Assembly (NCBI GenBank): GCA_016787345.1 | Contig: JAEUUU010000047.1 | Span: 40,115 to 104,114 of the forward strand | DNA: 64,000 bases | Direction of reading: 5' to 3' | DNA from: Saprospiraceae bacterium | GTDB lineage: Bacteria; Bacteroidota; Bacteroidia; Chitinophagales; Saprospiraceae | Shown here: positions 32,260-36,541 of the stretch, in pieces | Position numbering within the stretch: the first letter of the stretch is position 1 | Layout of the letters: every line of letters begins with the position of its first letter | Translations under genes and position numbers: made by a program | The notes under the pieces: model-generated | What the model saw: only the letters and a program-made list of their open reading frames with translations | Databases searched by the model: none | What the model was told of the DNA's origin: nothing

Positions 32260-32273
32260 TTGATGTTAATCAA
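32260..32273 (-). promoter_or_regulatory. FNR/FixK-type operator upstream of the cbb3 operon
   Basis: TTGATGTTAATCAA is a perfect TTGAT-N4-ATCAA palindrome, the consensus of FNR, Anr and FixK boxes. It lies 80-93 bp upstream of the ccoS ATG and overlaps the stop codon of the preceding Usp gene. If it activates from the usual -41.5 position, transcription would start near 32,225 with a leader of about 45 nt. Confidence 0.75.
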
Positions 32274-33424
32274 CCGGCGCCTTGATCTTCCATATCATTG
32301 CCCTGGTGCATCACCAGCACGGGGGTATCGGTATGGAGCAGCATTTTTTTGGTAGCGCTCGGGTGCATCAGGCTTTGCCAGATACCGCGATGATGGGTCA
32401 CGAAAACAAAGAGGTCGTTTTTGTGGCGAAATGCGTATTCGTGCAGGTTGTCGACCAGATTGTCGCCCGTTATTTTTTCAAAAATAAACGGCTTGCCGGC
32501 TTCGCTGAATTTGTAGTGGATTTCAAACAACATACGTTCCACCGCCAAATCTTTTTCAGCCGGGGGGCCTACGTGTACAAAATGCATTTGCGCGTCGTAT
32601 TGCTGGGCAAATGCAGCCACCTGCTGAATCTTGTCCGGATCGTTGCTTTCGAAATTGCTGGCATACAGAATGTTCCTGAATCCGTTCCAAACGGCGGCAT
32701 GCGGCACGATCAGCACCGGGCAATGCGCATTTTGCGACACCCAGGCGCTCACGGTGCCAAACAGCCGGGCGGCCAGGTTTCCCTTGCCCGTGGCGCCCAT
32801 GACCAGAAGGTCGAACTTGGTCGACAAACTTTCCAGTACCTCCTCGGGCGCGCCGAAGATGACTTTGGTTCGTACGCGCGGCATACCGCTGTTCTGTCCG
32901 GGGCCGGGGTCGATTTTAGGTTGACCGGGTAAATTCCATTTTTTAGGCGTTTCGCGGGCAAAGGCATCCAGTTCTTCCCGGAGTGTGTTGAGATAATTGC
33001 TCAAAAAACCCGATGAAGATGCCCTGGCGCCGTCGAACAAATCGCTCATGGCGTGTACCAGTTCGATTGAGGAGCCGAATCGCTCAGCCAGTTGCCATGC
33101 GAAATGGTAGGCGTTTTCGGAGGAGGGACTAAAATCGACCGGCACGAGGATGCGACGGAGACGGTAGAGTTTGGCGCGGTACAGCGACCGACGGCGCAGC
33201 ATACGGGTCAAATCAGCCACACTTGGCACTTCTCCTTCGGAGATAATCTGCCCGTCGACTACCAACGCCGGCGTTTGACTCACACCGGATGCCGTAATTT
33301 GATTCACCTCGGTGACTTCCTCCACTTTGCCAATCAGCGGGCAAAGCCGCAACGCGGCTGCTACGTTGTCGCGTAAAGCCCTTGTTTTGGCATCGCCTAT
33401 ACCGAAGATTTGAATGGTCGTCAT
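32270..33424 (-). CDS. Thioredoxin-like domain fused to two universal stress (UspA) domains
   Basis: 384 residues from ATG 33424; an in-frame ATG at 33520 would add a 32-residue non-domain leader. Residues 1-75 match the small redox-active disulfide (TIGR00412-like) thioredoxin fold (TIQIFGIG ... GVSQTPALVVDGQIISEGEVPS) but the CxxC is lost (GIGDAKT). Usp domain 1 begins RRILVPVDFS and keeps the ATP motif G-2x-G-9x-G-T (GATG ... FGT). Usp domain 2 lacks that motif, so it probably does not bind ATP. It precedes the cbb3 operon; Usp proteins are often induced in low oxygen. The fusion architecture is unusual. Confidence 0.85.
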   Translation of the reverse strand: MTTIQIFGIGDAKTRALRDNVAAALRLCPLIGKVEEVTEVNQITASGVSQTPALVVDGQIISEGEVPSVADLTRMLRRRSLYRAKLYRLRRILVPVDFSPSSENAYHFAWQLAERFGSSIELVHAMSDLFDGARASSSGFLSNYLNTLREELDAFARETPKKWNLPGQPKIDPGPGQNSGMPRVRTKVIFGAPEEVLESLSTKFDLLVMGATGKGNLAARLFGTVSAWVSQNAHCPVLIVPHAAVWNGFRNILYASNFESNDPDKIQQVAAFAQQYDAQMHFVHVGPPAEKDLAVERMLFEIHYKFSEAGKPFIFEKITGDNLVDNLHEYAFRHKNDLFVFVTHHRGIWQSLMHPSATKKMLLHTDTPVLVMHQGNDMEDQGAG

Positions 33425-33555
33425 AGTTTGGGCGCGTTGTGATCCTGGAACAGGTTGCAGCGGCGACACCTCTGTCTCTTTCAACTTGGAATACGCATCG
33501 CTTTTTTGAAGGAAATTCATATAGTATGGGGTTAAAATGCCCCGAAGGTTGTTGT

Positions 33556-34128: not shown

Positions 34129-35397
34129 ATGGAACAGAACCTGCCCGACGAACTATACCTGCGCTATCGTACTGTCATTGAAACCGCCGTCGATGGTATT
34201 ATTACCATCGACAGCAGCGGGGTTATTGAAAGTGTTAACCCGGCCGCATGCCGGCTTTTCGGCTACACCCGCGAAGAACTGGAGGGCCGGACGGTCAACA
34301 TGCTGATGCCTTCGCCCCACCGCGATGCCCACGATTCCTACATCCAACGGTACCTCGATACCGGGGAAAAAAGGATTATCGGCATCGGAAGGGAGGTCAA
34401 GGGAATGCGCAAAGACGGCACCCTTTTCCCCTTTTGGCTCAGCGTCGCCCAAATCCAGCTCGATGGCAGTTTCGGGTTTACCGGTTTCATTCACGACATT
34501 TCCGACCTCAAACAAGCGGAAGAAGAGATTCGGCAACTGAACGTCGATCTGGAGAAAAAAGTCAATGAACGCACCGAGCAACTGGCCGAAGTGGTCAATC
34601 AATTGCTCAGCTCCAACAAACTGCTCGAACGGGAAATCCGCGAACGCCGGGCAGCGGAAGAAGCCCTGAACAAAAACCGCGACGAACTGCTGCGCGCCCT
34701 CGATCGCGAACGCGAACTCAGCGAATTGAAAAGCCGTTTTGTCGCCCTCGCCTCCCACGAATTCCGTACGCCGCTCAGCACCATTCTGTCGTCGGCTTCT
34801 TTGGTAAAACGTTACGCCGAATTGGGGAACACCGAAAAACAAGACTTCCACCTCGAAAAAATCCGGATGGGCGTCAACCACCTCACCGGTATCCTCAACG
34901 ACTTCCTGAACCTGACCAAACTGGAAGAAGGCCTGGTGGAAGCCAACCCCGAACCGTTCAACTTTACCGATTTTGCCGCGGAAATCATCGATGAAATAAG
35001 CGGACTGGCCAAACCCGGTCAACGCATCCTTTGGTCGGACCGAACCGAAGGGCAGGAGGTCAGGCTCGATCGCCGCATCCTGAAAAACGTCATGTACAAT
35101 TTGATCTCCAATGCCCTGAAATACAGCGACCGCGACGTTCAGTGCCGTTCCGGATTCTCCTCCGGCTGGCTTGAAGTGGAAGTGCGCGACCACGGCATCG
35201 GAATCCCGGAAACCGACCAGAAATACCTGTTCGACCGCTTTTTCAGGGCCAAAAATGCCTTGAACATTCAGGGCACCGGATTGGGGCTGAACATCGTCCG
35301 GCGCTACCTCGACCTCCTGGGCGGCGATATTAACTTTACCAGCCGCGAGGGAGAAGGCACTACCTTTACCCTTCGACTGCCGATCGCAAAAGCGTGA
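34129..35397 (+). CDS. FixL-like PAS-domain histidine kinase (probable heme oxygen sensor)
   Basis: 422 residues, no membrane helices. The PAS domain (about 10-128) resembles the heme PAS of Bradyrhizobium FixL: AHDSYIQRY gives His68 at the place of proximal heme ligand His200, Arg74 fits Arg206, and IIGIGR gives Arg88 at the place of distal Arg220. A coiled coil (about 128-195) leads to HisKA with His210 in ASHEFRTPL and an HATPase domain (N-box NLISNALKYS, DHGIGIP, GTGLGLNI). The kinase should autophosphorylate in low O2 and pass phosphate to the receiver protein encoded 97 bp downstream. Heme binding is inferred from motifs remembered from the family. Confidence 0.88.
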   Translation: MEQNLPDELYLRYRTVIETAVDGIITIDSSGVIESVNPAACRLFGYTREELEGRTVNMLMPSPHRDAHDSYIQRYLDTGEKRIIGIGREVKGMRKDGTLFPFWLSVAQIQLDGSFGFTGFIHDISDLKQAEEEIRQLNVDLEKKVNERTEQLAEVVNQLLSSNKLLEREIRERRAAEEALNKNRDELLRALDRERELSELKSRFVALASHEFRTPLSTILSSASLVKRYAELGNTEKQDFHLEKIRMGVNHLTGILNDFLNLTKLEEGLVEANPEPFNFTDFAAEIIDEISGLAKPGQRILWSDRTEGQEVRLDRRILKNVMYNLISNALKYSDRDVQCRSGFSSGWLEVEVRDHGIGIPETDQKYLFDRFFRAKNALNIQGTGLGLNIVRRYLDLLGGDINFTSREGEGTTFTLRLPIAKA

Positions 35398-35494
35398 ATT
35401 TTGCAGCGCCGGCATTCGAGAACCCTCGGAATTGGAATACCTTGGGCACCGAAAAACCTGTATTTATTGTCCAGCAGACCGTTTTGCCCGTCGT

Positions 35495-36541
35495 ATGAAA
35501 AAGATCCTGATCGTTGAAGACAATCACGATGTCCGTGAAAACCTGGCCGAAATACTGGAACTCAGTGGGTATCAGCCGATAACTGCCGAAAACGGCAAAA
35601 TCGGGGTGGAAAAGGCTATGCAAGACCCGCCCGATTTGATCCTTTGCGATGTGATGATGCCCGAACTCGACGGTTTCGGCGTGCTGCATATCATCAGCCG
35701 AAACCAGCGAACCGCCGACGTCCCCTTTATTTTTCTCACGGCAAAAGCCGAACGCGACGACTTCCGGCGCGGCATGTCGCTGGGCGCCGACGACTACATC
35801 ACCAAGCCCTTCGACGAGACCGTCCTGCTCCAGACCATCGAAACCCGCCTCAAAAAAAGCGAGCGCCTAAAAGCCGCCTCGGCGCCCAACGGCGGCAGCG
35901 GCTCACTCGAACGTTTTATCAACGAGGCCAAAGCCATGGAAGCAATCCGCCACCTTTCCGACAACCGGGAAGTGCGGATTTATCGGAAAAAAGACCCCAT
36001 TTTCCGCGAAGGCGACACGCCGCGTTGGCTTTTTTACCTGGAAAAAGGACAAGCCAAAATTTTTAAAACCGCCGAAGACGGCCGCGAATTCATCCCCCGA
36101 CTGGCGAAAGCCGGCGACTTTCTGGGGTATCTCGCCCTGCTCAACGACGCCAACTACACCGAAAGCGCCACCGCGCTCGAACCTTGCGAAATAAAACTGA
36201 TTCCCAAACAGGAGTTTTACAGTCTCGTTTACGGCCACCGCGACGTGACCGCCCGCTTCCTGAAATTGCTGGCGCACCACGTGGCCGACCAGGAGCAACA
36301 GTTGCTCGATCTGGCCTACAACTCCGTCCGCCGGCGGGTTGCCAGCGCGCTGGTGTACCTCTACGACCAGGGCAACAAAGAAATCAACCTCCTGCGCGAA
36401 GACCTGGCGGCCCTGGCCGGTACCGCCAAGGAAACACTGATCCGAACCCTCACCGATTTTCGCGAATCCGGATTGATCGACATTCACGAAGGCATCATCA
36501 GCATCCGGAAAATTGAACATTTACGGACAATGCCCAACTGA
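35495..36541 (+). CDS. Receiver domain fused to CRP/FNR-type transcription factor
   Basis: 348 residues from ATG 35495 (MKKILIVEDN). Receiver domain 1-120 with the phosphate acceptor Asp52 (LCDVMMPE), Thr82 and Lys104. Residues about 145-265 form a cyclic-nucleotide-binding-like barrel (FREGDTPRWLFYLEKGQAKIF), and 275-345 a Crp winged helix. The recognition helix AKETLIRTL keeps Glu313 and Arg317, aligning with the Glu and Arg of FNR's ExxSR motif that contact TTGA half-sites. No FNR iron-sulfur cysteines are present, so oxygen input should come from the FixL-like kinase. It joins the FixJ and FixK roles in one chain. Likely operator: 32260-32273. Confidence 0.9.
   Translation: MKKILIVEDNHDVRENLAEILELSGYQPITAENGKIGVEKAMQDPPDLILCDVMMPELDGFGVLHIISRNQRTADVPFIFLTAKAERDDFRRGMSLGADDYITKPFDETVLLQTIETRLKKSERLKAASAPNGGSGSLERFINEAKAMEAIRHLSDNREVRIYRKKDPIFREGDTPRWLFYLEKGQAKIFKTAEDGREFIPRLAKAGDFLGYLALLNDANYTESATALEPCEIKLIPKQEFYSLVYGHRDVTARFLKLLAHHVADQEQQLLDLAYNSVRRRVASALVYLYDQGNKEINLLREDLAALAGTAKETLIRTLTDFRESGLIDIHEGIISIRKIEHLRTMPN

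Follow-up and report, generated by a model that had tools for sequence, protein, structure and literature searches.

The stretch of DNA analysed here, called the window below (64,000 nucleotides of Saprospiraceae bacterium assembly GCA_016787345.1, contig JAEUUU010000047.1, positions 40,115 to 104,114), carries an operon for a cbb3-type cytochrome oxidase and, on the opposite strand, two adjoining regulatory genes that are candidates for its control by oxygen. The first (34129..35397, + strand) encodes a histidine kinase of 422 amino acids with a haem PAS of the FixL type (Pfam PAS, HisKA and HATPase_c). The second (35495..36541, + strand) encodes a protein of 348 amino acids, here termed REC-CRP, in which a receiver is fused to a DNA-binding regulator of the CRP/FNR type (Pfam Response_reg, cNMP_binding and HTH_Crp_2). 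Between these two genes and the oxidase operon lie a gene for a CBS-domain protein and one for a universal-stress protein (Usp) fusion.

An earlier examination made from the letters alone (the sequence-only reading) had pointed to a TTGAT-N4-ATCAA palindrome, TTGATGTTAATCAA at 32260-32273, upstream of ccoS. The box is present, overlapping the 3' end of the Usp gene and with its centre 86.5 bp ahead of the ccoS start; as evidence on its own it was rejected, because at least one such site occurred in 10 of 100 shuffled windows and in 11 places in the genome. It is significant because it forms the distal half of a pair of dyads 22 bp apart, an arrangement that is rare in shuffles. Two such pairs, each dyad an exact match to TGAYN4RTCA (no strand assigned), were found in the window. 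The pair at 32239-32272 consists of a dyad proximal for ccoS (32239..32250, centre 64.5 bp from the ccoS ATG) and a distal dyad (32261..32272) that is the core of the TTGAT-N4-ATCAA box. The pair at 34058-34091, between the CBS and kinase genes and missed by the sequence-only reading, consists of a dyad proximal for the CBS-Usp unit (34058..34069, centre 61.5 bp from the CBS ATG) and, 22 bp on, a dyad proximal for the kinase gene (34080..34091, centre 43.5 bp from the kinase ATG). The gene caller had set the kinase and CBS starts inside this operator; the "coding" label there is an artefact, and the distances within the window were remeasured. Shuffled windows yielded a mean of 0.01 pairs with up to 1 mismatch, and none of 100 shuffles held two. 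The predicted operator unit is two TGAY-N4-RTCA dyads exactly 22 bp apart, of which a single box is one half.

Over-represented palindromes were searched for in 55 cco loci of relatives with REC-CRP and in 20 without it. The site conserved in these loci was TGAY-N4-RTCA with an outer base that is mostly A, not T: NTGAYN4RTCAN had an intergenic density of 2.14 per kb versus 0.12 per kb within genes in the 55 loci (1.82 versus 0.085 in the 20), and between genes of the 55 loci TTGAYN4RTCAA stood at 0.085 per kb versus 0.496 per kb for ATGAYN4RTCAT. The FNR/FixK consensus TTGAT-N4-ATCAA, which the sequence-only reading had relied upon, was not the conserved site; the core TGA-N6-TCA is common to both. 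The enumeration also ranked CCACC, ACCAT, TGCGG and AATGC pairs high, and these are probably conserved coding sequence. The 75 loci and the window held 56 intergenic site pairs with a spacing of up to 70 bp, and 46 of these were at exactly 22 bp. When all positions were counted in 81 sequences (80 fetched stretches of relatives plus the window, some of them close relatives, so that counts are not independent), the 22-bp spacing had 49 exact pairs, and no other spacing between 13 and 60 bp had more than 3; allowing up to 1 mismatch raised the count at 22 bp to 96, with no more than 7 at any other spacing. A sample of 149 genomes of the order, drawn evenly, held 220 exact operators, compared with 3 for the reversed control. 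Across 395 genomes of the phylum an exact operator was present in 51 and the reversed control in 1; the 51 comprise 18 of the 19 from the order of the Saprospiraceae, 26 from other orders of the class, and 7 from elsewhere. Ten loci with full-length REC-CRP (L031-L040) included 6 with at least one tandem at up to 1 mismatch. Arrays of three to four dyads in 22- or 23-bp steps were also seen (L145:16480-16560; G069:C11:6346-6401; G080:C49:67655-67710; G020:C2:2518584-2518639), which suggests that repetition can lengthen the site.

Of 76 cco loci, 63 had a box at 20-420 bp upstream of ccoNO and 39 a tandem (up to 1 mismatch); the sequence-only reading had proposed looking for a box upstream of the cco genes of relatives, and it is conserved there as TGAYN4RTCA and not in its TTGAT form. 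Near the kinase start a box was found for 23 of the 43 kinases with enough upstream DNA, versus 11% of tiled 500-bp windows. Of 54 oriented promoters drawn from the 81 sequences, 29 have the motif TAnnTTTG, which we take to be the consensus of the Bacteroidota -7 element, lying downstream of the proximal dyad with its centre at exactly 33 bp (at least 5 of 6 letters; 14 were perfect), whereas the shuffled control gave a mean of 0.56 per offset. Because the -7 element is 33 bp downstream, the proximal dyad falls at about -41 and the distal dyad at about -63; a centre near -41 is where activators in direct contact with RNA polymerase usually sit. Within the window, the -7 element for CBS-Usp is CACTTTTG (34027..34034, - strand; 5/6 to TAnnTTTG, 33 bp from the dyad centre 34063.5), and that for the kinase gene is TACTTTTG (34117..34124, + strand; 6/6, 35 bp from the dyad centre 34085.5).

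The kinase PAS was compared with the sequences of the PDB, where its closest match was the FixL haem PAS (1dp6, 6e-31), E. coli DosP being the next PAS family after FixL; its fold was taken as FixL-like because the sequence match to solved FixL was sufficient. In the alignment, the columns of BjFixL H200, R206 and R220 hold His68, Arg74 and Arg88 of the kinase, and both results bear out the FixL-like PAS proposed in the sequence-only reading. The kinase also has the HisKA plus HATPase_c core of FixL by Pfam. Its PAS starts at about residue 12, which leaves no room for an N-terminal membrane part, and against the NCBIfam FixL equivalog NF041777 it scored 174.7 bits, under the cut-off of 850. 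The haem His was present in 56 of 56 distinct PAS domains of the window kinase's family (at least 80 aligned residues, shorter segments being excluded), versus only 2 of 9 other PAS domains of the fetched loci, which served as the control and one of which (L007) resembles a fragment of a cognate kinase. A search of the bacterium's own genome for control PAS domains gave one other match, a weak one. Many kinases outside the window kinase's family have a divergent PAS. In this divergent class (kinases in L143, L146-L150, L156, L160 and L163) the haem His is kept and Arg206 lost, and in several of them Arg220 varies to Leu or Met; the ligand set may differ from that of FixL. The one divergent-class PAS searched against the PDB was closest to DosP, then to FixL.

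In REC-CRP, the receiver Asp52 and the Glu313 and Arg317 of the DNA-binding domain, as read earlier from the translation, were identical in all 60 REC-CRP rows of a 71-row alignment (the window protein counted twice; the other 11 rows are stand-alone proteins, all FNR-like except L150 7611-8330). The receiver has the phospho-acceptor Asp and the acidic pair of a response regulator (D9 in 60/60 rows; E8 in 54/60, with D in the remaining 6), and the remainder has the cNMP-binding fold, the HTH_Crp and the recognition-helix E...R of the CRP/FNR superfamily. A GerE match, as expected of FixJ (receiver plus LuxR/GerE helix-turn-helix), was not found in REC-CRP at E <= 0.001, nor does REC-CRP have the N-terminal iron-sulphur cysteines of FNR, the receiver standing in their place. 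Compared with NCBIfam, the best 25 of 107 models were each under their own cut-off. Seven CRP-family proteins of the genome were above the Pfam cut-off, and the E..IR-type helix occurred only in REC-CRP.

Full-length REC-CRP was present in 83 of the 149 genomes of the order, ccoNO in 87, and both in 59; 100 genomes had matched REC-CRP at E <= 1e-30, and from these the 91 full-length places in 83 genomes were picked by eye and partial matches dropped. A kinase gene lay directly upstream on the same strand for at least 72 of the 91 full-length REC-CRP genes, a lower bound since kinase matches were taken at 1e-55, and 30 of the 59 genomes that have the two carry REC-CRP within 20 kb of ccoNO. The kinase/REC-CRP pair was likewise found in Jiulongibacter sediminis, Sediminibacterium magnilacihabitans and a metagenome-assembled genome of the Flavobacteriaceae; in Chitinophaga filiformis, REC-CRP had no kinase match within the locus. 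The 21 kb covered for J. sediminis (L032) contained no tandem operator; S. magnilacihabitans is locus L036. The arrangement is widespread in the order and not special to this genome, and the comparison of relatives that the sequence-only reading had suggested turned out in its favour both for adjacency and for linkage to cbb3. Together with the shared operator, these two links strongly support its claim that two proteins would replace FixL-FixJ-FixK in the control of cbb3.

Among the 20 cbb3 loci without REC-CRP, 8 had a CRP-family gene within about 0.8 kb of ccoI (L202, L203, L205, L210, L211, L214, L218 and L220), and all 8 proteins have a GTATE[TS]xIR helix and C-x2-C-x8-C cysteines; one of them, compared with NCBIfam, matched Fnr best (115 bits, under the cut-off of 228). 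FNR-like proteins were counted in 44 genomes, picked by eye as nearly full length with an open frame below 280 amino acids and E of roughly 3e-48 or lower; CRP proteins with weaker matches were left out, and 14 of the 44 genomes were not among the fetched loci. The best 30 loci showed the E..IR helix in 30/30 and the Cys motif (C-x2-C-...-C) in 24/30. The 87 cbb3 genomes comprised 51 with REC-CRP only, 24 with the FNR-like protein only, 8 with both and 4 with neither (Fisher p 7e-11, ignoring kinship); that is, 24 of the 28 without REC-CRP carry the FNR-like protein. These 24 represent eight families, of which five (f8, f12, f14, f18 and f20) also include REC-CRP-only cbb3 genomes. Across the 149 genomes the exact operator was present in 51/72 with REC-CRP only, 20/33 with the FNR-like protein only, 6/11 with both and 5/33 with neither, or in 77/116 with either regulator versus 5/33. 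An operator confined to REC-CRP genomes was considered and rejected: among the 66 genomes that lack full-length REC-CRP, 25 have it, and 20 of these 25 hold the FNR-like protein. In a tree of CRP domains, REC-CRP and the FNR-like proteins were sister groups (93/85 for REC-CRP and 83/80 for the FNR-like group, below the tool's starred level); the tree left out 10 of the 30 fetched FNR-like loci, one helix motif having been required, and a later alignment took all 30. Because they are sister groups, a single fusion event behind REC-CRP would fit. Genomes G002 and G088 carry both regulators, with the FNR-like gene near cco (L150:8400-9194, 18034-19104; L179:9008-9838), and G002 had 14 exact operators, the most among the 149 genomes. 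Since most related cbb3 genomes without REC-CRP have the FNR-like protein and the same operator, the DNA-binding end and the operator seem to have been kept and the oxygen sensor exchanged.

The oxidase operon, on the - strand, consists of ccoS (31965..32180; Pfam FixS), ccoNO with oxidase subunits I and II fused (29824..31959; COX1 and FixO), a gene for a ccoQ-like membrane protein of 62 amino acids (29593..29781; a reading frame with hand-counted coordinates, named from position and length only), ccoP (28547..29512; FixP_N and Cytochrome_CBB3) and the copper P-type ATPase gene ccoI (26013..28532; E1-E2_ATPase, ATPase-cat_bd and HMA). By Pfam it has the ccoN, O, P, S and I of a cbb3 operon, and Pfam and the reading frames agree with the order given in the sequence-only reading. 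The CBS-Usp unit, also on the - strand, starts with a protein of two CBS domains (33556..34002; Pfam CBS), followed by a fusion of a thioredoxin fold to a universal-stress protein (32270..33520; Pfam Thioredoxin_3 and Usp). The N-terminal part of the fusion (33197-33418, - strand) is thioredoxin-like, of the MTH895/ArsE type but under the cut-off of that model, and is probably not redox-active since it has no CxxC motif. The operator at 34058-34091 is direct sequence evidence for the predicted feedback and for the CBS and Usp genes as members of the putative regulon, a membership that had been supposed earlier; CBS proteins also stand behind the same type of operator in relatives.

The whole genome has 3 exact operators and 13 with up to 1 mismatch, compared with 0 for the reversed pattern. 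Of the 11 outside the window, 8 were between genes and 3 (L266, L275 and L278) inside genes according to the gene caller; the third exact operator (L266) is in a predicted reading frame that has an alternative start (130 amino acids) 46 bp away. The genes behind the 8 intergenic operators, named from translated sequence and not by family search, are a two-domain Usp gene (70 bp), a CcoG-like gene (the predicted start overlaps the site and the distance is unsure), a pyruvate phosphate dikinase-like gene (66 bp), a kinase-like ATPase gene (60 bp) with a divergent gene (90 bp), a sulphide:quinone oxidoreductase-like gene with a divergent membrane-protein gene (72 and 74 bp), a homogentisate dioxygenase-like gene (56 bp), a cytochrome c-like gene (92 bp) and a YceI-like gene (62 bp). 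Chance may account for some of the one-mismatch places. The fetched loci, 110 in all (80 larger and 30 small ones, with some overlap), contained 79 exact operators, 60 of which had a gene start 35-130 bp away, for 72 genes. Pfam was run on 61 of the 72, and the 25 of 70 families listed included Usp (7), CBS (5), E1-E2 ATPase (4) and FixS (2); also behind the operators were PAS (5) and HisKA (4), representing the window kinase's family, glutamyl-tRNA reductase (2), hemerythrin (2) and anaerobic ribonucleotide reductase (1), with others unrelated. Three of the 61 proteins matched baeRF family 3, and were assigned by similar starts to L283:1585-2571, L287:370-1452 and L288:1583-2677.

We consider it likely that the FixL-like kinase, REC-CRP and the 22-bp paired operators make up a two-protein oxygen circuit that controls the cbb3 oxidase. 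At high oxygen, O2 bound to the PAS haem would keep the kinase off; as oxygen falls, the kinase would autophosphorylate and then phosphorylate Asp52 of REC-CRP. Phosphorylated REC-CRP would bind the two dyads as two neighbouring dimers, their centres 22 bp or two helical turns apart, and the protein at the proximal dyad would touch RNA polymerase directly. From the two operators of the window, ccoS-NO-Q-P-I and CBS-Usp would be activated, as would, in a positive feedback, the kinase/REC-CRP pair itself; one-mismatch copies elsewhere in the genome lie ahead of Usp, ccoG-like, cytochrome c-like and sulphide:quinone oxidoreductase-like genes. The direction of control, on at low oxygen, finds its best support, an indirect one, in genomes that lack REC-CRP and pair the same operator with the FNR-like protein.

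Several observations weigh against this circuit. Arg206 is absent from many relatives' kinases and Arg220 is replaced by Leu, Met, Ile, Val or Lys in 17 of the 56 PAS domains, and ligand behaviour may vary with them; the kinase of L019, which adjoins a REC-CRP gene, has only short PAS segments with no His at the haem column (segments that fell to the 80-residue filter of the His count). The ccoS promoter of the window matches the -7 element at 3/6 only, and the kinase promoter has an offset of 35 bp, not 33. Because the -7 element of the kinase promoter stops 5 bp before the ATG (34117-34131), the transcript would start about at its own ATG and be almost leaderless, or another promoter would be in use. 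Upstream of ccoNO, 24 of 76 loci have a single box without a tandem (up to 1 mismatch) and 13 have no box; a tandem near the start was found in only 9 of 43 kinase genes (versus 4.6% of tiled 500-bp windows); and an exact operator is missing from 26 of the 83 REC-CRP genomes. Many of the loci and genomes are akin, and the p-values overstate independence.

It appears unlikely to us that some other CRP/FNR protein of the genome uses the paired operator, with the kinase and REC-CRP only lying close by and controlling something else. Six other CRP-family proteins exceed the Pfam cut-off, two of which (L226 and L227) have an FNR-like E..SR helix, and the operator does occur in the 25 genomes without full-length REC-CRP mentioned above; however, none of the six has the helix of REC-CRP, 20 of those 25 genomes hold the sister-group FNR-like protein, whose helix residues are common to 30/30 fetched, and the operator flanks the kinase gene itself. 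We give about the same small weight to a real circuit in which the kinase senses nitric oxide, carbon monoxide or redox state, or has no haem. Haem PAS proteins can respond to gases other than O2, the distal residues vary among relatives, and we infer haem binding from the residue pattern; against this, the His/Arg/Arg pattern is present, the nearest solved PAS domains (FixL and DosP) are O2 sensors, the genes behind the operator include those for cbb3 assembly, haem synthesis and anaerobic ribonucleotide reductase, and the apparent replacement partner of REC-CRP is FNR-like. Far less probable still is that a PAS kinase of a common kind, a REC-CRP unrelated to it and an FNR-like palindrome of random origin came together by chance: a single TTGAT-N4-ATCAA box does arise in shuffled windows, as noted, but the conserved adjacency, the linkage to cbb3 and the 22-bp spacing spectrum contradict it.

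The proposed oxygen circuit resembles the FixL-FixJ-FixK cascade of rhizobia and Caulobacter in its haem-PAS kinase input, its CRP/FNR-type output and cbb3 as the main target; it differs in that the receiver is fused to the CRP/FNR protein, with no FixJ and no intermediate transcription step, and in the 22-bp pair that stands in place of a single FixK box (cascade details partly from PMC4999443). The hFixL-FxkR-FixKf system of R. etli and R. leguminosarum is a variant wiring of the same O2 input to a FixK-type output (PMC4999443); it still has three regulators, FxkR and FixKf being separate proteins. With FNR, FnrN and ANR, REC-CRP shares the CRP fold and a related half-site, TGA, and its stand-alone relatives near cbb3 mostly have FNR-type cysteines; unlike them, it has a phospho-receiver instead of a cysteine cluster, and its sites have an outer base that is mostly A rather than T and are two, 22 bp apart. 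DosP, the nearest match of the divergent PAS searched, is a c-di-GMP enzyme and not a kinase. In a search of the literature on FixL, FNR, cbb3 and Crp in Bacteroidota, fused receivers, censuses of response regulators and tandem FNR sites, the circuit was not described among the matches listed, subscription papers being mostly outside the search. On comparative sequence grounds, a condensed circuit that is a new variant with an interchangeable sensor appears well supported.

With somewhat less assurance, we think it probable that microaerobic control in the Bacteroidia is of a plug-in kind: the 22-bp pair, its 33-bp distance to TAnnTTTG and one DNA-binding domain would be kept, a dimer of dimers reading the pair, and the oxygen sensor would be exchanged between an iron-sulphur cluster within the protein itself (FNR-like) and a haem-PAS kinase that acts via the fused receiver, with switching or differential loss within five families of one order. 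The finding provides a concrete, testable oxygen-control circuit for the Bacteroidia, and the operator is specific enough (the reversed control is nearly zero) to help read microaerobic regulons from genomes. It suggests that, with the operator unchanged, a one-component iron-sulphur sensor has been swapped in nature for a two-component haem one, and the evolution of such swaps becomes directly testable.

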